A stretch of 25,533 nucleotides of DNA from a virus. This document shows positions 195 to 21,893 of the stretch, piece by piece. Where the stretch lies: positions 1-25,533 of the IMG/VR virus record IMGVR_UViG_3300037069_001810. One strand, given 5' to 3'. Both the position numbers and the translations under genes were made by a program. How positions within the stretch are numbered: position 1 is the first letter of the stretch; every line of letters starts with the position of its first letter. Below the pieces are notes generated by a model. It did no database searches and was not told the DNA's origin. It saw only the letters and a list, made by a program, of their open reading frames with translations.

Positions 195-542
195 ATGCGT
201 GGAGAACGGCGAATCGAGCGAAACGGCTACGTGATGGACTACGTGGGCAGCGGTCGATATCAGTACCAGCACCGGCTCGTCATGGAAGCTCACTTGGGCC
301 GGCCGCTGGACCGTCGGGAGATCGTCCACCACGTCAACGGCGACAAACACGACAACCGGGTCGAGAACCTCGAGATCATGTCGCAGTCCGAGCACCGTGC
401 GCTCCATGGCGGCGCGAAGGGCCCGCGACCGCACCTGTGGAAGCGGCGCTGTGCATGGTGCGGAAAGCCGATGAGAGGAAAAGGCGAGCGCGTGAAGTGC
501 TGCTCACAGTCGTGCGGCCAGAAGCTCCGTTACGCCGCCTAG
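195..542 (+). CDS. HNH endonuclease with C-terminal zinc ribbon
   Basis: The 115-residue protein has an HNH_3-type core. The segment Q-H-R-L-V-M-E-A-H-L-G-R-P-L (about 25-38) is followed by I-V-H-H-V-N-G-D-K-H-D-N-R-V-E-N-L (43-59) and S-E-H-R-A-L-H (65-71), giving the metal-binding and catalytic His/Asn pattern. The tail holds C-x-x-C at 86/89 and a second Cys group at 102-107, likely a zinc ribbon. Enzymes of this class are free-standing homing endonucleases or packaging-associated nickases of phages. It stands between a lysis-type gene and a terminator, well away from the terminase, so a selfish homing nuclease is likelier than a packaging factor. That role is inferred. Confidence 0.85.
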   Translation: MRGERRIERNGYVMDYVGSGRYQYQHRLVMEAHLGRPLDRREIVHHVNGDKHDNRVENLEIMSQSEHRALHGGAKGPRPHLWKRRCAWCGKPMRGKGERVKCCSQSCGQKLRYAA

Positions 543-766: not shown

Positions 767-1165
767 CTACTCGCCGGCGGCTTCTGCGCTGCCGGGGTCT
801 TGTCTGCCTATGGGGAGGGCAGCCACGGCTGCGTGCAGTTCCGCGAGCTGGTCTCCGATCTCGGCCAGATTTGCCTCAATCTGTCCCAGGCGAGCGTCGA
901 CGGACAAGTTCGACGCTGGCGTTCTGAAGGCGCCCATCAGGTCCGCGCTCTGCACCGGCGGCCCCTTGTACAGCTCGTCGTAGTCGACGGAGAAGAACTC
1001 GGCTAGCTTCCGGGCGTTCGCTGGTGCGATGCCACCCTCGGCTGCCCATGCGCCGACCGCGCGAGTTGATACGCCGCAGTAGGCGGCTACTTCATCCCAT
1101 GTGATCTCGGGGTTCTGGTCCTTGAGTTCCCGGATGCGTTCGGCCCGCGCCTGGTCCTTTGCCAT
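767..1165 (-). CDS. Cro/CI-type phage repressor (XRE-family HTH)
   Basis: The protein has 132 residues when started at the ATG of MAKDQARAER. An upstream extension to 1306 would run through the promoter region and shows no protein-like pattern. The HTH spans about residues 12-60: W-D-E-V-A-A-Y-C-G-V-S-T-R-A-V-G-A-W pairs the two helices, followed by N-A-R-K-L-A-E-F-F-S-V-D-Y-D-E-L. The C-terminal part (R-L-G-Q-I-E-A-N-L-A-E-I-G-D-Q-L-A-E-L) has heptad-like spacing and probably forms a coiled coil for oligomerisation. It is transcribed away from the early operon, the usual layout of an immunity repressor. No LexA-like self-cleavage domain is present, so RecA-driven autocleavage is not expected. 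Confidence 0.8.
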   Translation of the reverse strand: MAKDQARAERIRELKDQNPEITWDEVAAYCGVSTRAVGAWAAEGGIAPANARKLAEFFSVDYDELYKGPPVQSADLMGAFRTPASNLSVDARLGQIEANLAEIGDQLAELHAAVAALPIGRQDPGSAEAAGE

Positions 1166-1175
1166 CCGGATCAGC

Positions 1176-1204
1176 ACGCTACGTCGGTGGGCTTGGCTTG
1201 TCGA
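1176..1204 (-). promoter_or_regulatory. Repressor promoter, leftward
   Basis: On the minus strand TCGACA (1204 to 1199) and TAGCGT (1181 to 1176) are separated by exactly 17 bp. The -35 matches TTGACA at five of six bases and the -10 fits TANNNT. The predicted start lies within a few nt of the repressor ATG at 1165, leaving almost no leader. No Shine-Dalgarno sequence is seen. Confidence 0.55.
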
Positions 1205-1238
1205 TGATGCGTTCACGAAGTTCCTTCTTCCTGATGCG

Positions 1239-1267
1239 TTGACTTCCGTCTTACTTCCGATTATAGT
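1239..1267 (+). promoter_or_regulatory. Early promoter, rightward
   Basis: TTGACT (1239-1244), a 17-bp spacer and TATAGT (1262-1267) form the best sigma-70-type promoter in the window. The expected transcription start near 1274 falls on or next to the GTG 1275 / ATG 1278 start of the first early gene, so the mRNA would be leaderless. It would drive the 8.2-kb early operon. Confidence 0.8.
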
Positions 1268-1276
1268 TCCGGAAGT
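1242..1276. promoter_or_regulatory. Operator cluster of ACTTCCG repeats
   Basis: ACTTCCG occurs at 1242-1248 and 1253-1259 on the plus strand and at 1270-1276 on the minus strand. The last lies in the near-palindrome AGTTCCGGAAGT (1265-1276). The first two are 11 bp apart, about one helical turn. They cover the -35, the spacer and the start of the early promoter. They are likely binding sites for the XRE repressor, for the ribbon-helix-helix protein encoded next door, or for both. Confidence 0.6.
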
Positions 1277-1277
1277 G

Positions 1278-1439
1278 ATGCAGAAGCAAGCGGAAGATGC
1301 GGACAAGCTGGTGAGCCTCTCGGTGCGCGTGCCGGCCGAGACCGCTGAGCGGTTGAAGGAGCGCGCTGACGCGCACTACCGGCCGGTCGCTACGCACATC
1401 CGCTGGCTCATCGACAAGCACTTGAAGGAGGCGGCATGA
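1278..1439 (+). CDS. Ribbon-helix-helix (Arc/MetJ-like) regulator
   Basis: This is a 53-residue protein. L-V-S-L-S-V-R-V-P-A (11-20) is the antiparallel DNA-contacting strand; two helices follow, E-T-A-E-R-L-K-E-R-A-D (21-31) and V-A-T-H-I-R-W-L-I-D-K-H-L-K (37-50). The strand-helix-helix size and pattern fit small phage Arc-type repressors. The start is ATG 1278, with GTG 1275 one codon upstream; either sits at the predicted transcription start of the early promoter. As first gene of the early operon facing the XRE repressor, it may act like Cro and autoregulate through the ACTTCCG sites. That role is inferred. Confidence 0.75.
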   Translation: MQKQAEDADKLVSLSVRVPAETAERLKERADAHYRPVATHIRWLIDKHLKEAA

Positions 1440-4641: not shown

Positions 4642-4967
4642 GTCTCGCGTCTCCCGCCGAGGTCCAGAACCGCCTTGAACAGGTCGATGCTGAACTCGGC
4701 CTCCGTCTGAACGCGCTGGAGAAAGCGGCGTTCGACTGGTACAGGGCGAAGCCGCAGCGCGACAAGCTTTGGGCGCAGACCTACATCGGTTTCAACGGGC
4801 CGGCGCATCTGCGGAAGGTCGCGGCTGACGGGAGGGTTGCGGAGGAGTTGGAGTGGGCTGAACTGGAGGGGTTGTATGAGGGGTTGAGGGCTGTTGTGCG
4901 TGGGTTGGAAACGAAAGCGTCGATCGGTCAGAGCATTCTCCGGGCGCAGTCGAGGGTGGGCGCGTGA
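4638..4967 (+). CDS. Coiled-coil early protein, 109 aa
   Basis: It starts at ATG 4638, overlapping the upstream stop. It is almost entirely helical. The N-terminal helix V-Q-N-R-L-E-Q-V-D-A-E-L-G-L-R-L-N-A-L-E has heptad spacing, and a second helical part has L-E-W-A-E-L-E-G-L-Y-E-G-L-R-A-V. Between them, K-P-Q-R-D-K-L-W-A-Q-T-Y may be a conserved loop. Proteins of this size beside nucleases are common in actinophages and have unknown function. No catalytic motif is visible. Confidence 0.6.
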   Translation: MSLASPAEVQNRLEQVDAELGLRLNALEKAAFDWYRAKPQRDKLWAQTYIGFNGPAHLRKVAADGRVAEELEWAELEGLYEGLRAVVRGLETKASIGQSILRAQSRVGA

Positions 4968-5314
4968 AACAGACCCCGCTCGCACGCAAGACCCCTCTCG
5001 GCCGTAAACCCCGCGCTCGCGGGAACCGTGGCGAGCTGGAGGTCGTGAACATCCTGAAGGCGCACGGCTACCCGGCGTACAGGAACTTCGCGTCCGGGGG
5101 GTATGGCGGCTCGGATGTGATCGGTTTGCCGGGGTTCGCTGTCGAGGTGAAGATGGTCGAGGCGCTGAATATCTGGAAGGCGCTGGCGCAGTCTGAGGAG
5201 GCTGCGAGTGCGACGGAGACCCCGACGGTCGTGTTTCGGCGGAATCGTTCTCGGTGGTATGTGGCGCTCCCGTTCGAGGATTTCCTTGGGCTGGTCGAGG
5301 AGGCTCAATCATGA
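4964..5314 (+). CDS. PD-(D/E)XK nuclease, Holliday-junction-resolvase-like
   Basis: This is a 116-residue protein starting at GTG 4964. After a basic N-terminus (R-K-T-P-L-G-R-K-P-R-A-R) come the nuclease elements: N-R-G-E-L-E-V-V-N-I-L (21-31) with a conserved Glu, G-G-S-D-V-I-G-L (48-55) with catalytic Asp51, and A-V-E-V-K-M (59-64) giving Glu61 and Lys63. The order E...D...ExK is that of small archaeal-Hjc-like and phage resolvases. Such enzymes cut branched DNA made during replication or recombination, or trim ends. No RusA or RuvC motif is present. Confidence 0.78.
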   Translation: MKQTPLARKTPLGRKPRARGNRGELEVVNILKAHGYPAYRNFASGGYGGSDVIGLPGFAVEVKMVEALNIWKALAQSEEAASATETPTVVFRRNRSRWYVALPFEDFLGLVEEAQS

Positions 5315-6056: not shown

Positions 6057-6588
6057 CAAAGAACAACCAACAACCAAATTGAACGGACCGGACAGGACTG
6101 TTCAGTTGGAAGCACTGCTAGCTCGACACGGCGTTGACGGGCTCGACAACCTCATCGAGGGGTTGGGTGAGGGGTTCAACGTCGAGGCTTGCCTTGCGGC
6201 GGTGGGGAAGTTCGAACAGGGCGCTGAGCAGTCCCCGGGGCTGCTGGTTTATAAGGTCCGGGCTGCGGCGAAGGCTCCTCGGGTTGAGGATGCGCCGGCG
6301 CCGAAGATGGCTGTGACTCCTCGCCTGCTGCAGGCTGTCCGCGGGTCCTGTGGCAGCCCGAACGGGTTCACGAGGGACGAGGCCCGCGACATGTTCGCCG
6401 CTGCTGCGAAGGCCAGGGGCCGGTCGGTGGATGAGCTGGTGGATCTGGCGATGGGCGCTGAGTGGCAGGAGACGAAGCCGCACCCGGCGTACGACCTGGA
6501 CAGGTCGCGTGAGGAGCGGGTGGTGGCGTATCACCGGTGGTTGAACCGTCCGGTGGTCGAACAGAAGCTCGCGGAGGTCGAGGTATGA
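6037..6588 (+). CDS. Replication protein C-terminal partner, 183 aa
   Basis: ATG 6037 is the first start; no Shine-Dalgarno sequence is evident. The protein opens with a linker-like Q-Q-P-T-T-N-K-E-Q-P-T-T segment. A helical domain follows: L-E-A-L-L-A-R-H-G-V-D-G-L-D-N-L, then F-N-V-E-A-C-L-A-A-V-G-K-F, and S-P-G-L-L-V-Y-K-V-R-A-A-A. The last third has F-T-R-D-E-A-R-D-M-F and R-S-V-D-E-L-V-D-L-A. A Gln/Thr/Pro linker at an N-terminus is odd and suggests this was the distal part of the preceding initiator, reached by re-initiation or frameshift. The function is otherwise unknown. Confidence 0.65.
   Translation: MQQPTTNKEQPTTKLNGPDRTVQLEALLARHGVDGLDNLIEGLGEGFNVEACLAAVGKFEQGAEQSPGLLVYKVRAAAKAPRVEDAPAPKMAVTPRLLQAVRGSCGSPNGFTRDEARDMFAAAAKARGRSVDELVDLAMGAEWQETKPHPAYDLDRSREERVVAYHRWLNRPVVEQKLAEVEV
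6041..6074 (+). repeat. AAC-rich direct repeats, iteron-like
   Basis: AACAACCAACAAC occurs perfectly at 6041-6053 and 6062-6074, 21 bp apart (two helical turns). The wider tract 6040-6078 contains 24 A, 13 C, one G and one T, far more AT-rich than its surroundings. It spans the overlap of the two replication ORFs. Confidence 0.7.
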
Positions 6589-7292
6589 GCAGGCCCAGGC
6601 TTCTCGATTTGTTCTGCGGCGCCGGCGGCTGCTCAGTGGGGTATCACCGCGCGGGCTTTGATGTGGTGGGTGTGGACATCGCTCCGCAGCCGAACTACCC
6701 GTTTGAGTTCTGGCAAGCCGACGCGCTCGAGGTTCTCGAGCGTACGGAGCGGTGGCTTGACGATGGCGCGCTCTGGCGCTTCGACGCGATCCATGCTTCG
6801 CCGCCTTGTCAGGCGCACAGCACGATCGCAAAGCAGCAGCGGCAACGCCGTCCCGGCGTTTATGAGCACCCCGAATTGGTCGGTCCGGTCCGCGAGCTTC
6901 TGAAGGCAACCGGCCTGCCGTACGTGATCGAGAATGTGATGGGGGCGCCTCTCGTTGACGCGATCCAGCTTTGCGGCTCGAGCTTCGGCCTCGACCTCCA
7001 CCGGCATCGGTTGTTTGAGTGCTCGTTCCCAGCGATGGCTATGCCGTGCGCGCACTATTGGCAGACGCCACGGTTCCGGACGCTTGATAGCCGCAAACCG
7101 AATGCTCTGGCATCTGTCGTCGGCGTCCATGGACACCACAATTATGCGGGAGAGCGCGATCTGCGGGAGGCGGCGATGGGCATCGACTGGATGGACCCTC
7201 GCGAGCTGACCCAGGCGATCCCGCCGGCGTACACCGAGCACGTCGGCTCCTACCTGCTAGCCGAGGTCAACCGGAGCAGGGTCGCGGTATGA
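6585..7292 (+). CDS. Small DNA (cytosine-5) methyltransferase, copy 1
   Basis: The protein has 235 residues from ATG 6585, with a GGAGG site upstream. C5-methyltransferase motifs appear in order: I, D-L-F-C-G-A-G-G (8-15); II, G-V-D-I (29-32); IV, A-S-P-P-C-Q (71-76) with Cys75 as the nucleophile; VI, Y-V-I-E-N-V (114-119); VIII, H-R-H-R-L-F-E (139-145). Usual C5 enzymes have 320-450 residues with a large target-recognition domain after motif VIII; here only about 90 residues follow. It would transfer methyl from SAM to cytosine in DNA, probably masking phage DNA from restriction. No cognate nuclease lies nearby. Confidence 0.85.
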   Translation: MSRPRLLDLFCGAGGCSVGYHRAGFDVVGVDIAPQPNYPFEFWQADALEVLERTERWLDDGALWRFDAIHASPPCQAHSTIAKQQRQRRPGVYEHPELVGPVRELLKATGLPYVIENVMGAPLVDAIQLCGSSFGLDLHRHRLFECSFPAMAMPCAHYWQTPRFRTLDSRKPNALASVVGVHGHHNYAGERDLREAAMGIDWMDPRELTQAIPPAYTEHVGSYLLAEVNRSRVAV

Positions 7293-9658: not shown

Positions 9659-9916
9659 ATGGCTGATCGGCGCGTGGGAATCGAGCACTTCTTCCTGGCG
9701 GACGTAGACCCGCGCGATGACCGACTGCTCCGCGTGACACCGACCGGCGACGGAACGGTCGGGCTCACGATCGTTCAGCGCACCGAAGACGTGCCCGTGA
9801 AGGAAACCGAGCTTGGCTCGCTGATCGTCGATATCGAGCCGCTGTGGAATGGCCTGCGCGCGATGCTCGTCTCGGAGGGGTATCGCGTGGCTTCTGGGGG
9901 TGTGTCTGGTGTCTAG
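9659..9916 (+). CDS. Hypothetical protein, 85 aa
   Basis: It starts at ATG 9659 with only a weak GGAAG upstream. The protein is beta-rich (I-E-H-F-F-L-A-D-V-D, T-V-G-L-T-I-V-Q-R-T) with a helical C-terminal part (I-E-P-L-W-N-G-L-R-A-M-L). It ends G-G-V-S-G-V, encoded by the 29-bp repeat shared with the gene ending at 11332. The family is unknown. Confidence 0.55.
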   Translation: MADRRVGIEHFFLADVDPRDDRLLRVTPTGDGTVGLTIVQRTEDVPVKETELGSLIVDIEPLWNGLRAMLVSEGYRVASGGVSGV

Positions 9917-9919
9917 AGA
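9891..9919 (+). repeat. 29-bp direct repeat, copy A (gene junction)
   Basis: This stretch is identical over 29 bp to 11307-11335. It encodes the last residues of the upstream gene, includes the stop in GTGTCTAG (9909-9916), and leads into the AAAGGAG ribosome site (9919-9925) of the next gene. Confidence 0.9.
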
Positions 9920-9935
9920 AAGGAGCGCGATATGA
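9909..9935 (+). other. Micro-ORF bridging two genes, 8 codons
   Basis: GTG 9909 opens a frame reading V-S-R-E-R-S-A-I and stops at TGA 9933. It overlaps the preceding stop at GTGTCTAG and the following gene start as ATGA. A second example lies at 10173-10202. It may be a translational coupling device or just a by-product of the repeat. Confidence 0.3.
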
Positions 9936-10180
9936 GCGTGAGGCTGCACCTTCAATGCTCGGGCTGCGAGAACACGGCGACCGGGAAGCTGCACCGGGAC
10001 TTCGAGACGATCTTCAACGGCTCCAACGCTTACGGCTTCGGCCGCTGGAATCTGCGCCCCGAGGTTCCAGACGGCTGGGTGCTGTTCGACCCGTATACCA
10101 ACATCACCTATTGCCCGGTGTGCGCTGATGAGATTTGGGGCCCGTCTGTTAATCAGGATGCGCGGGTCGCTGGTGTCTAG
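9932..10180 (+). CDS. Zinc-ribbon protein, 82 aa
   Basis: This gene has an excellent AAAGGAG site six bases before ATG 9932. C-S-G-C (9-12) and C-P-V-C (64-67) form a likely zinc-binding pair. The middle holds N-G-S-N-A-Y-G-F-G-R-W-N-L-R-P and P-D-G-W-V-L-F-D-P-Y-T-N. This resembles small phage or actinobacterial zinc-ribbon proteins of unknown role. It ends V-A-G-V at a partial copy of the GTGTCTAG junction. Confidence 0.65.
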   Translation: MSVRLHLQCSGCENTATGKLHRDFETIFNGSNAYGFGRWNLRPEVPDGWVLFDPYTNITYCPVCADEIWGPSVNQDARVAGV

Positions 10181-10183
10181 AGA
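10170..10183 (+). repeat. Partial copy of the junction repeat
   Basis: CTGGTGTCTAGAGA matches the 3' half of the 29-bp repeats. It again contains the upstream stop codon and leads into a purine-rich ribosome site. Confidence 0.8.
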
Positions 10184-10202
10184 GAGGAAGGAACTGCGAT
10201 GA
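10173..10202 (+). other. Micro-ORF bridging two genes, 9 codons
   Basis: GTG 10173 reads V-S-R-E-R-K-E-L-R and stops at TGA 10200-10202, overlapping the next ATG (10199) as ATGA. It has the same layout and the same first five residues as the micro-ORF at 9909. Confidence 0.3.
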
Positions 10203-10375
10203 CGCAGCGCGACGGGAGCTACAGGGTGCGCATTGAGCGTCTGCCGAGCAGGTGGTGGCGCGCGGAGGTCAAGGGACCGCGCGGACTCTTGGAGGTGACG
10301 ATCAGCGCGCGCACAGCGCTCGATGCGCTCGACTTCGCGAAGGCCCGAATCGAAGAGGAGGAGAGCCCACGATGA
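10199..10375 (+). CDS. Small hypothetical protein, 58 aa
   Basis: ATG 10199 follows a GAGAGGAAGGA purine tract. The protein reads as a beta hairpin (Y-R-V-R-I-E-R-L, W-W-R-A-E-V-K-G) followed by a helix (A-R-T-A-L-D-A-L-D-F-A-K-A-R-I-E-E-E-E). It resembles a small HicB-like or dsRBD-like fold, but no family can be named. It couples to the next gene by ATGA. Confidence 0.5.
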   Translation: MTQRDGSYRVRIERLPSRWWRAEVKGPRGLLEVTISARTALDALDFAKARIEEEESPR

Positions 10376-10605
10376 CGCCTTCCGAGCAGCGCAGCGTGCG
10401 CGTGAAGGGCGGCCTCGTGCTCGTCCAGCCGTCAGACGCTCGGCCGCCCTGGGGACTCTCTCCCCGGGCGGCCCGCGAACTCGCGGGGGCGCTCATGGCC
10501 GCTGCTGCCGAGGCGTCGGGGGACGAGAGCGCTCCGGGCCAGCCCGAATCGCGCGTCCTCAGACCCCGATGCACTTGCCAAACGAACCCGAGGAGACACC
10601 TGTGA
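10372..10605 (+). CDS. Hypothetical protein, 77 aa
   Basis: It starts at ATG 10372 (ATGA overlap). The visible order is a short strand pair (V-R-V-K-G-G-L-V-L-V-Q), W-G-L-S-P-R-A-A-R-E-L-A-G-A-L-M-A-A-A-A-E-A as a helix, and a Cys-containing basic tail (R-C-T-C-Q). The strand-helix part resembles small proteins with a P-x-x-A-R-x-L-A-x-x-L motif frequent in actinophages. The function is unknown. Confidence 0.55.
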   Translation: MTPSEQRSVRVKGGLVLVQPSDARPPWGLSPRAARELAGALMAAAAEASGDESAPGQPESRVLRPRCTCQTNPRRHL

Positions 10606-11018
10606 ACAGCACGATGACTGACGAAGAAGCTCGCGTCCAAGCGATCGAGGTCGCTAAGGAGGCGCTGGCCTATGTTTCTGAGGCCGACACTCTCCCGGCG
10701 GCGCAAGCGACCGCGAGAGGCGCTCTGTACGCGATGGGTAAGACGCTCGGATGCCCGGAGGCTGTGCTCGCGGGCACCTGCGAGTGCGTTCAGGGTGAGT
10801 GCACTTGCCCGAGCGGCTCGACCGAGGGCGAGATCGCGGCGATTCAAGCACTTCCCGCCGATGCGCTTGTCCCGTCGGGCTTCTGCGCGCACTGCCGGCT
10901 GCCCATAGGGAAATCTGACTGCTATGCGATTCCCGGCATCATGTGCCAGATCCACAAGCGGTGCTACGAGGCCTTCCGCACCGCCCGCCAGTCCGTGCCT
11001 GTGCGGGAGGGCCTATGA
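10602..11018 (+). CDS. Cysteine-rich zinc-finger-like protein, 138 aa
   Basis: It starts at GTG 10602, overlapping the upstream stop, with GAGGAG ahead. The N-terminal half is helical (V-Q-A-I-E-V-A-K-E-A-L-A-Y-V). Cysteines follow: C-E-C-V-Q-G-E-C-T-C around 80-90, then C-A-H-C, C-Y, and C-Q-I-H-K-R-C near the end. The last set (CxxC...CxxHKxC) resembles a treble-clef or LIM/RING-like zinc site. The target is unknown. Confidence 0.6.
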   Translation: MNSTMTDEEARVQAIEVAKEALAYVSEADTLPAAQATARGALYAMGKTLGCPEAVLAGTCECVQGECTCPSGSTEGEIAAIQALPADALVPSGFCAHCRLPIGKSDCYAIPGIMCQIHKRCYEAFRTARQSVPVREGL

Positions 11019-11332
11019 AAGGCTGGCAAACTACATGGAGGAGCTGGACGATGTCTGACGAGGCTCTAGAGAAGGAGGAGAAAGTGCGCGGAGTTGTGGC
11101 GGCGATGACGGCGCTAGGCGAGGCGTACCGGGGGGACTGGCACGACTTCGACGGCCGCTGGCTTCGCAGCCAACTCGAAGAACTCGGCACGGTCTTCGAG
11201 AAGGCGTTACGCGGCGAGGACACGACGGGCGATGTAGCCGCCTTCTACGCGTTCAACGGCATCTGCTCTCAGTGCGGTAGCTGGACGGAACACTGCGACT
11301 GCGTGTCTTCTGGGGGTGTGTCTGGTGTCTAG
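11015..11332 (+). CDS. Hypothetical protein, 105 aa
   Basis: ATG 11015 overlaps the upstream stop. ATG 11051, preceded by GGAGGAG, is an alternative start giving a protein that begins M-S-D-E-A-L-E-K-E-E. The body is helical (W-L-R-S-Q-L-E-E-L-G-T-V-F-E-K-A-L). A C-S-Q-C and C-D-C group lies near the end, followed by G-G-V-S-G-V from repeat copy B. The family is unknown. Confidence 0.55.
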   Translation: MKGWQTTWRSWTMSDEALEKEEKVRGVVAAMTALGEAYRGDWHDFDGRWLRSQLEELGTVFEKALRGEDTTGDVAAFYAFNGICSQCGSWTEHCDCVSSGGVSGV

Positions 11333-11335
11333 AGA
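11307..11335 (+). repeat. 29-bp direct repeat, copy B (gene junction)
   Basis: It is identical to 9891-9919 and again spans the end of a gene, its TAG stop in GTGTCTAG (11325-11332) and the following purine-rich ribosome site. Here the internal GTG opens a full gene rather than a micro-ORF. Confidence 0.9.
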
Positions 11336-11537
11336 GAGGGAGGAAACCATCAGCGAAGCGTTCTCGGGCTCGCTCGCACGCGTACGGCAGGCCGTCAGCG
11401 ACTTGGAGGATGCCGCGGGGCTGCCCGTCGAGAGCAACACGGGCTGGGGCGAAGCGATCATCGCCGCGGCTGAGGTGGAGTACGCCGCAGGAGAGCTGCG
11501 CCGCGCGGTGGATCAAAGGGCGCCGAGTCGTGTCTAG
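11325..11537 (+). CDS. Helical hypothetical protein, 70 aa
   Basis: I start it at GTG 11325 inside the repeated GTGTCTAG junction, which gives V-S-R-E-R-E at the N-terminus; a GTG at 11316 is the alternative. The protein is helical (S-L-A-R-V-R-Q-A-V-S-D-L-E-D-A-A-G, A-I-I-A-A-A-E-V-E-Y-A-A-G-E-L-R-R). It looks like a small coiled-coil accessory of unknown family. It ends again at a GTGTCTAG. Confidence 0.5.
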   Translation: MSREREETISEAFSGSLARVRQAVSDLEDAAGLPVESNTGWGEAIIAAAEVEYAAGELRRAVDQRAPSRV

Positions 11538-12228
11538 GGAGCCGGTACAGGCAACAGACAGGCGAGCGCCGAAGATCCTTGATCTCTTCTGCGGAGCTGG
11601 CGGGGCCGCGATGGGGTACTACCGGGCGGGCTTCCGGGTCGTGGGCGTAGACATCAAGCCTCAGCCGCACTACCCCTTTACGTTCTGGCAGGCCGACGCA
11701 ACCCAGTTCCTCGACTGGGTCGAGCCGGAAGAGTACGCCGCGATCCATGCTTCGCCGCCGTGCCAGGGCTATACGTCGATGAACAACCGCTATGCGTCGA
11801 AATCGCCGCTGCTCATTCGGGATGTGCGTGCGGCCCTGAAGCGGATCGCCACTCCGTACGTGATCGAGAACGTTTCGGGCGCTCGAGCGCATATGGATCA
11901 TCCGGTCCAGCTCTGCGGGAGGTCACTGGGGCTGGGCGTGGCTCGGCACCGTCTCTTTGAGTGCTCCTTCCCGTGTATGGCGATCCAGTGCGCGTGCCGC
12001 GGGGACGAGCTCCCGGTCTACGGAAAGCTCGACGGCCGGCGCCTCTGGACCCGTAAAGACGGTTCGGAGCTCCGGGCGGCTAAGACGCTCGAGGAAGCGC
12101 AGGCGGCGATGGGCATCGACTGGATGACCTGGGATGAGCTTCGGGAGGCAATCCCACCCGCAATGACGGAGCACATCGGAGGTTTCTTGATCCGTGAGGT
12201 TGAGCGTCGGTCGAGGCTGGTGGCGTGA
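11530..12228 (+). CDS. Small DNA (cytosine-5) methyltransferase, copy 2
   Basis: The protein has 232 residues from GTG 11530 in the GTGTCTAG overlap. Motif I is D-L-F-C-G-A-G-G (18-25), motif IV A-S-P-P-C-Q (74-79) with Cys78, motif VI V-I-E-N-V (111-115), and motif VIII A-R-H-R-L-F-E. It shares extended identity with copy 1 (P-Q-P-x-Y-P-F-x-F-W-Q-A-D-A; A-A-M-G-I-D-W-M; I-P-P-A-x-T-E-H) but diverges after PPCQ and in the middle. That is what paralogs with different targets would show. It too lacks room for a large target-recognition domain. The likely role is self-modification against restriction. Confidence 0.85.
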   Translation: MSREPVQATDRRAPKILDLFCGAGGAAMGYYRAGFRVVGVDIKPQPHYPFTFWQADATQFLDWVEPEEYAAIHASPPCQGYTSMNNRYASKSPLLIRDVRAALKRIATPYVIENVSGARAHMDHPVQLCGRSLGLGVARHRLFECSFPCMAIQCACRGDELPVYGKLDGRRLWTRKDGSELRAAKTLEEAQAAMGIDWMTWDELREAIPPAMTEHIGGFLIREVERRSRLVA

Positions 12229-12257
12229 CCGTGGTACAGGCAAGAAAGGACAACGAG

Positions 12258-20709: not shown

Positions 20710-21393
20710 ATGCCCTCGATCGGGCTTGACACGAAGCACTGGACGCGGTTCTCGCCGCAAGGCAAGACCCAGGTCGTGAAGTGCCTCGGCTTCGCGTGCT
20801 ACTACTCCGCGGAAGCGGAACCGCCCGAAATCTCCTCGACCGGAACCGGCGGCACCGAACTCGCCGCGAACGCGACCCTGACCGTCGAACGCCCGCTGTG
20901 GTTCCGCGGGAAGGAACCCTCGACCACGGAAGCGCCCTACCAGCCTTCGACGCTCGAAGTGCGCGTCCCCTCGGCGGAAACGACCGGGACGGGCCAGATC
21001 GAAAACGAAGCGGTCACCGAAGCGAAGCTCGCCGCGAAAGCCGTGACCCCCGCGAAGGCTCTGGCTGCGACGACACCCACACCGTCGGGCACAGAATCGC
21101 TGACAGCGGAACTGGGGACCGCGGGCGTGACCCGTACTGTCGTCGCCGCGTACAACGCGAAACACGAAGCGTCCGCGAAAGTCAAAATCAAACACGGCCT
21201 GAACACCGAAGCGGTCGTCGTCTTCGCGTACACGGTGTCCTCCAAAAAACCCTCCGAACGTCTCGCTGACAGCGCGAGCACGGCCGGAGCGATCGCGAAA
21301 ATCAAAATCGAATCCGCTGAAGAAATCCTCGTGACGCTCGCTACGGGGGAACCCGCAGCGAAAGAAGAATTCTTCTACGTCGTGATGGGCTGA
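20710..21393 (+). CDS. Tail-fibre-like virion protein, 227 aa
   Basis: It starts at ATG 20710, directly after the previous stop. Residues about 97-120 contain I-E-N-E-A-V-T-E-A-K-L-A-A-K-A-V-T-P-A-K, the repeat unit (I....A.T.AKLA..AV.T.KL) typical of phage tail fibres. Beta-rich regions flank it: L-G-F-A-C-Y-Y-S-A near the start and V-A-A-Y-N-A-K-H, V-V-V-F-A-Y-T-V and E-E-F-F-Y-V-V-M near the end. Its last 19 bases overlap the 3' end of the antisense HNH gene. It probably sits in a tail spike or fibre. Confidence 0.65.
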   Translation: MPSIGLDTKHWTRFSPQGKTQVVKCLGFACYYSAEAEPPEISSTGTGGTELAANATLTVERPLWFRGKEPSTTEAPYQPSTLEVRVPSAETTGTGQIENEAVTEAKLAAKAVTPAKALAATTPTPSGTESLTAELGTAGVTRTVVAAYNAKHEASAKVKIKHGLNTEAVVVFAYTVSSKKPSERLADSASTAGAIAKIKIESAEEILVTLATGEPAAKEEFFYVVMG

Positions 21394-21893
21394 CGCTCCA
21401 GTTCTTCGATGGTCGGAAGCCGGTCGTGCTTTCGCATATTGCAGCCCGGATGCGCTGGCTGGGCGTTGCGGTAGGCATGTAGGCCTCCGCGCGATAGCGG
21501 CATCACATGGTCAACGTGGAAGGCATCGGTGATCGTTTCGCCGCAGATTCCGCAGAGTCCTTGGTGCATCTCAAGTAATTGGATCGGATCGACATCCTCA
21601 ACGAACTGATCTAGCTTGCGAGCGATTCTCGTCAGTTGTGTTCGAGCGCGTTTAGCCAGAGTCGTAGGGCGTTTTTGGCGCTCACGGATGGTCTCGCGTT
21701 CGCGTTCGTAGTAGGCATTTACGTAGGCGACGATCCGATCTTTCTCGCGCCGGTAGCGCGCAGCGCCAACATCGGAGACTCGCGTGCGATGGCGCTCCTT
21801 ATAAGTCGCGAGGTACTCGGAGTTCGCAGCCCTACAGGGCTCACAGCGGCACTTCGCCTTCACGTAACACGATCTGGTGCCGTGGCGCAGCAT
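21375..21893 (-). CDS. HNH homing-type endonuclease, antisense
   Basis: This 172-residue protein starts at the ATG at 21893 on the minus strand. The N-terminus H-G-T-R-S-C-Y with C-R-C-E-P-C (15-20) is a Cys-rich motif common in actinophage nucleases. The HNH core is at the C-terminus: C-G-I-C-G (114-118), F-H-V-D-H-V-M-P-L-S-R-G-G (125-137), N143 in Y-R-N-A-Q-P-A-H, and G-C-N-M-R-K (150-155). It is the only minus-strand gene in the late region and lies between the fibre-like gene and the portal gene, which suggests insertion of a selfish endonuclease. Its own -10 lies just upstream. Confidence 0.88.
   Translation of the reverse strand: MLRHGTRSCYVKAKCRCEPCRAANSEYLATYKERHRTRVSDVGAARYRREKDRIVAYVNAYYERERETIRERQKRPTTLAKRARTQLTRIARKLDQFVEDVDPIQLLEMHQGLCGICGETITDAFHVDHVMPLSRGGLHAYRNAQPAHPGCNMRKHDRLPTIEELERQPITT

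Follow-up and report, generated by a model that had tools for sequence, protein, structure and literature searches.

Probable start-associated repeats at gene junctions in an uncultured bacterial virus

Junction repeats of other phages and the present locus

The SAS and ESAS repeats of the Cluster K mycobacteriophages and the Cluster EF Microbacterium phages (PMC3203893, PMC7302621) are short and asymmetric, carry an AGGAG-type core and lie in one orientation at the ribosome-binding sites of a subset of small non-structural genes, and they sometimes include the upstream stop codon. The SAS is 13 bp long, is present in 10–19 copies per genome and is conserved cluster-wide. A different type of junction homology has been described for Island3, in which the unrelated neighbouring small genes 67 and 68 share their last codons in DNA, so that gp67 and gp68 have 18 C-terminal residues in common, which is attributed to recombination at ~50 bp; this is one pair, and a relative with the empty site is known (PMC3029335). 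Finally, ordinary termination-reinitiation coupling operates at stop/start overlaps without an intervening micro-ORF (PMC6728339).

Here, we describe repeats at the junctions of a series of very small genes of an uncultured bacterial virus. The window, which is the whole stretch of DNA analysed, comprises 25,533 nt, and its junctions were called from ORFs. The repeats resemble the SAS in their asymmetry, their AGGAG-type core at the ribosome-binding site, their single orientation, their association with small non-structural genes and the occasional inclusion of the upstream stop codon. Copies A, B, and C (and site E) lie on the plus strand, 3–6 nt from a start codon, and in A–C a Shine-Dalgarno (SD) core that can pair with 16S rRNA is accompanied by conservation beyond the SD. 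In contrast to the SAS, 3–5 copies are confined to 1.7 kb, the repeat extends into the upstream gene (39 bp for the longest pair), it contains a second SD and a GTG, and its sequence is different: the published 13-bp consensus (GGGATAGGAGCCC or GGGAAAGGACCCC) in many copies conserved among relatives was not found, and the relatives carry a different, though alignable, repeat.

As for the Island3 genes, the last codons are shared in DNA between small genes that are neighbours but unrelated (39 bp, compared to ~50 bp), and one short sequence is placed at the junctions of different genes, with A, B, and C all flanking unrelated genes. Unlike the Island3 sequence, the repeat is present in three or more copies and includes the start region of the next gene, and no relative with an empty site was found. 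Stop/start overlaps of the ordinary coupling type occur at some of the junctions and across the window, whereas the coupling proposed for the present junctions would involve an intervening micro-ORF. Judged from sequence, the repeat appears to work like an SAS combined with a boundary sequence, and does not fall into the published Cluster K or EF SAS families; the phenomenon is thus already known in kind, from the start-site repeats and boundary sequences of other phages. We consider that the copies are start-associated boundary repeats with a translation-initiation region, which were copied among junctions during gene shuffling, and assign this reading a probability of about 0.62.

Copies of the repeat in the window

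The octamer GTGTCTAG was found four times in the window, on the plus strand only, at 9909, 10173, 11325, and 11530, against a mean of 0.26 copies in shuffled sequences, none of which (0/100) reached four. Each copy is the end of an ORF. The octamers at 9909–9916, 10173–10180, 11325–11332, and 11530–11537 lie on the coding strand, and, as a preliminary description of this DNA had reported, at all four the TAG closes one frame (ORFs 9659–9916, 9932–10180, 11051–11332, and 11325–11537) and the internal GTG opens another. The genes concerned had also been called successive, which they are not: 10199–10375, 10372–10605, and 10602–11018 intervene between the second and the third. All four octamers were also observed in a near-identical contig of another record (L005/G001), so that an assembly accident in a single contig does not account for them. 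The features are listed below.

9659–9916, plus strand: gene ending in copy A, 85 aa; coding score +12.0, compared to −40 and −50 for the other frames
9885–9934, plus strand: junction copy A; tail of gene 9659–9916 (..VASGGVSGV, stop), GTG at 9909, TAG at 9914–9916, next ATG at 9932; SD1 GGGGGTG at 9896–9902, SD2 AGAAAGGAG at 9917–9925
9932–10180, plus strand: 82-aa gene located between A and B, with two CxxC pairs and no assigned family
10170–10201, plus strand: junction copy B; ..RVAGV, stop; GTG at 10173, TAG at 10178–10180, SD AGAGAGGAAGGAA, next ATG at 10199
11051–11332, plus strand: gene ending in copy C; candidate starts ATG 11015, ATG 11051, and GTG 11084
11065–11086, plus strand: site E, TCTAGAGAAGGAGGAGAAAGTG; stop-like/SD/start layout inside the open frame of 11051–11332
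11301–11351, plus strand: junction copy C; ..VSSGGVSGV, stop; GTG at 11325 (start of gene C), TAG at 11330–11332; SD1 GGGGGTG at 11312–11318, SD2 AGAGAGGGAGGAA; ATC at 11349 in place of the ATG of A and B
11325–11537, plus strand: gene C, 70 aa; no usual start nearby other than the GTG of copy C
11530–11541, plus strand: weak copy at junction D; gene C and the cytosine DNA methyltransferase gene overlap by 8 nt (stop/start, GTGTCTAG)
11530–12228, plus strand: cytosine-C5 DNA methyltransferase gene with a GTG start at D; phrog_363, E=3.4e-41; PF00145 above cut-off

For the gene 9659–9916, searches of PHROG and Pfam and the phage comparison gave no match and no family. Homologues of the small genes were sought to ask whether the ..SGGVSGV tail had been added, and none was usable. 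The methyltransferase gene 11530–12228 is one of two cytosine DNA methyltransferase paralogues (the other at 6585–7292), which have exact repeats of 26, 21, and 17 nt in common. The sequence GGTACAGGCAA is present at the start of this second methyltransferase gene (11544–11554) and again just past its end (12233–12243), and is possibly a boundary repeat.

Copies A (9885–9923) and C (11301–11339) are identical at 37 of 39 bases; the 29 identical bases noted previously in two copies (9891–9919 and 11307–11335) lie within this pair. Copies B and C are identical at 23 of 24 bases over 10170–10193, including a stretch of 18 exact bases, and in each comparison the identity stops abruptly inside unrelated genes. 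Outside the SD, CTGGTGTCTAG is conserved in A–C. Each of the good copies covers the last codons of a gene, its TAG stop, a strong SD, and the next start. In A and C, the ..SGGVSGV codons are arranged with GGGGGTG, 6 nt, GTG, TAG, AGAAAGGAG or AGAGAGGGAGGAA, and 3 to 6 nt before the next start, and ..GGVSGV with its stop is spelled GGG GGT GTG TCT GGT GTC TAG. Site E, which was overlooked previously, is a copy of TCTAGAGA plus the SD at 11065; TCTAGAGA occurs four times in the window, on the plus strand only, a number reached in 0/100 shuffles. For junction D, the shared sequence is limited to GTGTCTAGGGAG, with 11/12 matches to the consensus, and this likeness may be a coincidence. These comparisons show that the octamer belongs to a longer repeat with dispersed copies, of which it is the visible portion.

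In the full form of the proposed boundary repeat (A and C), the last codons of the upstream gene, encoding ..SGGVSGV, would hold an embedded SD and GTG start, followed by the TAG stop and by a second, extended SD of the AGAAAGGAG type set for the next start. Each copy would supply the following gene with a strong ribosome-binding site of the ordinary type, and where the frame permits (C and D), the GTG itself would be the start of the next gene, with an 8-nt overlap with the stop. The copies would have arisen during the reshuffling of small accessory genes, through recombination at short homologies of this type, and the repeat probably also provides short homology for exchange. We infer both the copying by recombination and the use of each start. 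In this manner, ribosome-binding sites could travel with the tail of the preceding gene. One part of the repeat, AGAAAGGAG, could have converged, because it matches 16S rRNA.

The window also encodes a RusA-like Holliday junction resolvase (4964–5314; phrog_244, E=4.3e-21), which may assist recombination between short homologous stretches. By eye, HNH-endonuclease-like ORFs were seen at 195–542 (plus strand) and at 21375–21893 (minus strand), the latter being located on the opposite strand in the gap directly before the portal gene.

Shine-Dalgarno pairing and the micro-ORFs

Duplex energies were estimated for pairing to the 3' end of 16S rRNA, assuming a Gram-positive tail, which may not be that of the host. 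The SD duplexes of the strong sites ranged from −12.7 to −13.3 kcal/mol. In A and C, the additional SD, GGGGGTG, which is placed 6 nt upstream of the GTG, gave −13.1 kcal/mol, and SD2 of copy A gave a comparable value (−12.7 kcal/mol) for the ATG. For copy B, the values were −12.7 kcal/mol for the ATG and −7.7 kcal/mol for the GTG, and for junction D the value was just −4.9 kcal/mol. RNA structure at the junctions did not exceed that of shuffled sequences (z = −0.71, +0.42, +2.41, and +0.40), and no Rfam families were detected in the window.

The GTG of the repeat is plausibly a start codon, as suggested by the presence of SD1 in A and C and by gene C, which has no ATG at the expected place. 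Since copy C carries ATC in place of the expected ATG, the GTG is the likeliest start of gene C. The coding score of this gene is +5.5, compared to −34 and −49 for the other frames, and gene C is the best indication from sequence that the GTG of the repeat can work.

In the preliminary description, the octamer GTG of the first two copies was read as starting a micro-ORF of 8–9 codons, whose stop overlaps the next start as ATGA, thereby coupling translation of inserted genes by stop and restart. The frames were found as described: VSRERSAI for A and VSRERKELR for B, each ending in a TGA that lies within the ATGA at the next start, and full frames from the GTG for C (VSREREETISEAF.., 70 aa) and D (VSREPVQATDRRAPKILDLFCGAGG.., 232 aa). 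Copy A indeed carries a strong SD for the GTG (−13.1 kcal/mol), gene C must use the GTG if it is expressed from a usual start codon, and termination-reinitiation at ATGA is established (PMC6728339). In addition, the GTG-to-ATG distances of A (23 nt) and B (26 nt) differ by 3, so that both micro-ORFs close on ATGA. Frames of 5–12 codons closing on the TGA of a start were found for 11 of the 46 starts in the window, but most of these frames are in fact the genuine upstream gene, overlapping by 4 nt; among starts without such an overlap, a micro-ORF was present at 4 of 28, two of which are A and B, leaving just 2 of the 26 others.

However, the genes after A and B have strong, well-spaced SDs of their own, so that coupling would be unneeded. 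Copy B has no good SD for its GTG, copy C has no micro-ORF but an in-frame fusion, the repeat of the relatives is without a micro-ORF, and the coding score of the micro-ORF codons is negative. We regard stop-restart coupling through the micro-ORFs of A and B, with initiation at their GTGs, as possible but unlikely. Part of the earlier notion of a duplicated stop-restart cassette is supported, in that a sequence spanning stop and restart is duplicated among junctions (37/39 bases, 29 exact) and the relatives use an analogous junction repeat where their genes differ. Its definition by the octamer or by micro-ORFs is not supported, given the rarity of the octamer elsewhere, the in-frame fusion in C and the lack of a strong upstream SD in B and D.

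Repeats in relatives and in other DNA

The relatives G003 and G005, identified by their terminases (67–68% aa), carry the junction repeat GGGGCGTTTCTGCGTNATG (GGGGCGTTTCTGCGTGATG), of which G003 has four copies and G005 a single one, each on the coding strand. A frame terminates in ..GVSA at the G005 copy and at three of those in G003, whereas the fourth G003 copy (L007, 4971) is the end of a short frame in ..GVSAL; in every case, a start is located in or right after the repeat. The ..GGVSA end of G005 is spelled GGG GGC GTT TCT GCG TGA, and the repeat of the relatives aligns with A and C as GGG GGY GTK TCT G, with codon phase and start register both preserved. When anchored on the GTG, copy A and the G005 copy match at 11 of 13 positions, which was reached by 1 of 1119 background starts. 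The pattern GGYGTKTCTG, which was chosen after the fact, is confined to these repeats in the window and the relatives. Both common descent and shared selection on the start region fit the likeness of A and the G005 sequence.

A linker common to this uncultured phage group, comprising a GGVS-type tail with SD and GTG, a stop, and a second SD, with working micro-ORF initiation, is an unlikely reading. If it were true, a new small gene would arrive already fitted with a stop, a ribosome-binding site, and a coupled restart.

The blocks shared by G003 and G005 are mostly 74–99% identical in nucleotide sequence, and their small genes differ. In the accessory regions, isolated identities of at least 24 nt are all located at gene starts or stops (5/5); one is a 28-nt start (MPDHAKVIP) of genes that are unrelated beyond it, and another is a 25-nt end-and-start junction. 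The zone of G003 with three linkers (L007, 3367–4971) largely has no counterpart in G005. This pattern fits recombination at short junction homologies, by analogy with Island3 and Brujita (PMC3029335). Gene differences surround the identities between G003 and G005, whereas for the accessory genes of the window no relative carrying them and no intermediate relative was found, and therefore no copy can be demonstrated to have been gained or lost with a gene. The several copies in one genome and the analogous set in gene-swapping relatives provide concrete test sites for the proposed start-associated boundary repeats. A second family of start-site repeats, GTGACTCCTCCTGACCGTCCCGA.. (protein starts VTPPDR..), was observed in G003 (L007, 2449 and 2619) and G005 (L009, 4484 and 4679).

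A scan of the viral_contigs DNA with the repeat of the relatives detected G003, G005, and G007 only, the last of which belongs to the same phage group but has diverged (about 55% aa). The G007 copy (L100, 474–492) is inverted relative to the neighbouring genes, in DNA that appears to be non-coding.

The inverted G007 copy is not accounted for by a role in translation alone. Stoperators are typically one-directional asymmetric repeats at short junctions, and the present repeats have the same appearance; together with a repressor-like gene in the window (767–1306, minus strand) and the non-coding, inverted G007 copy, this would suit a DNA site for a binding protein (operator or stoperator-like) that is found at gene junctions by chance. 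Nevertheless, just 3–5 copies are present, which are clustered in 1.7 kb and do not lie near the repressor gene, their length and edges vary, and the repeat matches the SD position and the reading phase too well for such a site, which makes this explanation highly improbable.

In 628 kb of other viral DNA, GTGTCTAG occurred 8 times, little above similar control octamers (1–6), and it was located at a junction only in one orthologous pair, that of G003 and G005, in which AGGAGGTATCTGG-GTGTCTAG ends one gene and starts the next. A role of the octamer as a general gene-end signal was thus rejected. The G003/G005 octamer is an 8-nt overlap of the ordinary kind, which is generally enriched in phage loci (ATGNNTGA, 40 versus 20 for the control; ATGNNTAG, 12 versus 0). 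This enrichment raises the question of convergence, in which the TAG stop, the strong SD, and the 8-nt overlap would recur because dense phage genomes favour them; junction D and the single GTGTCTAG of G003 and G005 fit such an origin. For A–C, convergence alone was rejected, since convergence would hardly produce 29 exact bases and 37 of 39 in total, ~20 of which precede the octamer and have no function at the second start. As an account of all copies, convergence only is very unlikely, and it stands for D.

Exact 18- and 19-nt patterns of the window repeat matched just the near-identical contig in viral_contigs. Three matches in genome_contigs (Rhodopirellula, a MAG, and a cyanobacterium) were discarded, not resembling SD junctions between genes, and a 16-nt match in L089 was antisense and treated as chance. 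A megablast search of the window against phages and a terminase search of genome_contigs for a host gave no match. Exact start-site repeats of at least 17 nt were found in about 8 of the 78 other viral loci examined. Two loci contained several exact SD/start repeats (L027, 1127/1384, 5956/6113, and 6609/6893; L091, 410/678/2001), and are candidates for new SAS-like families.
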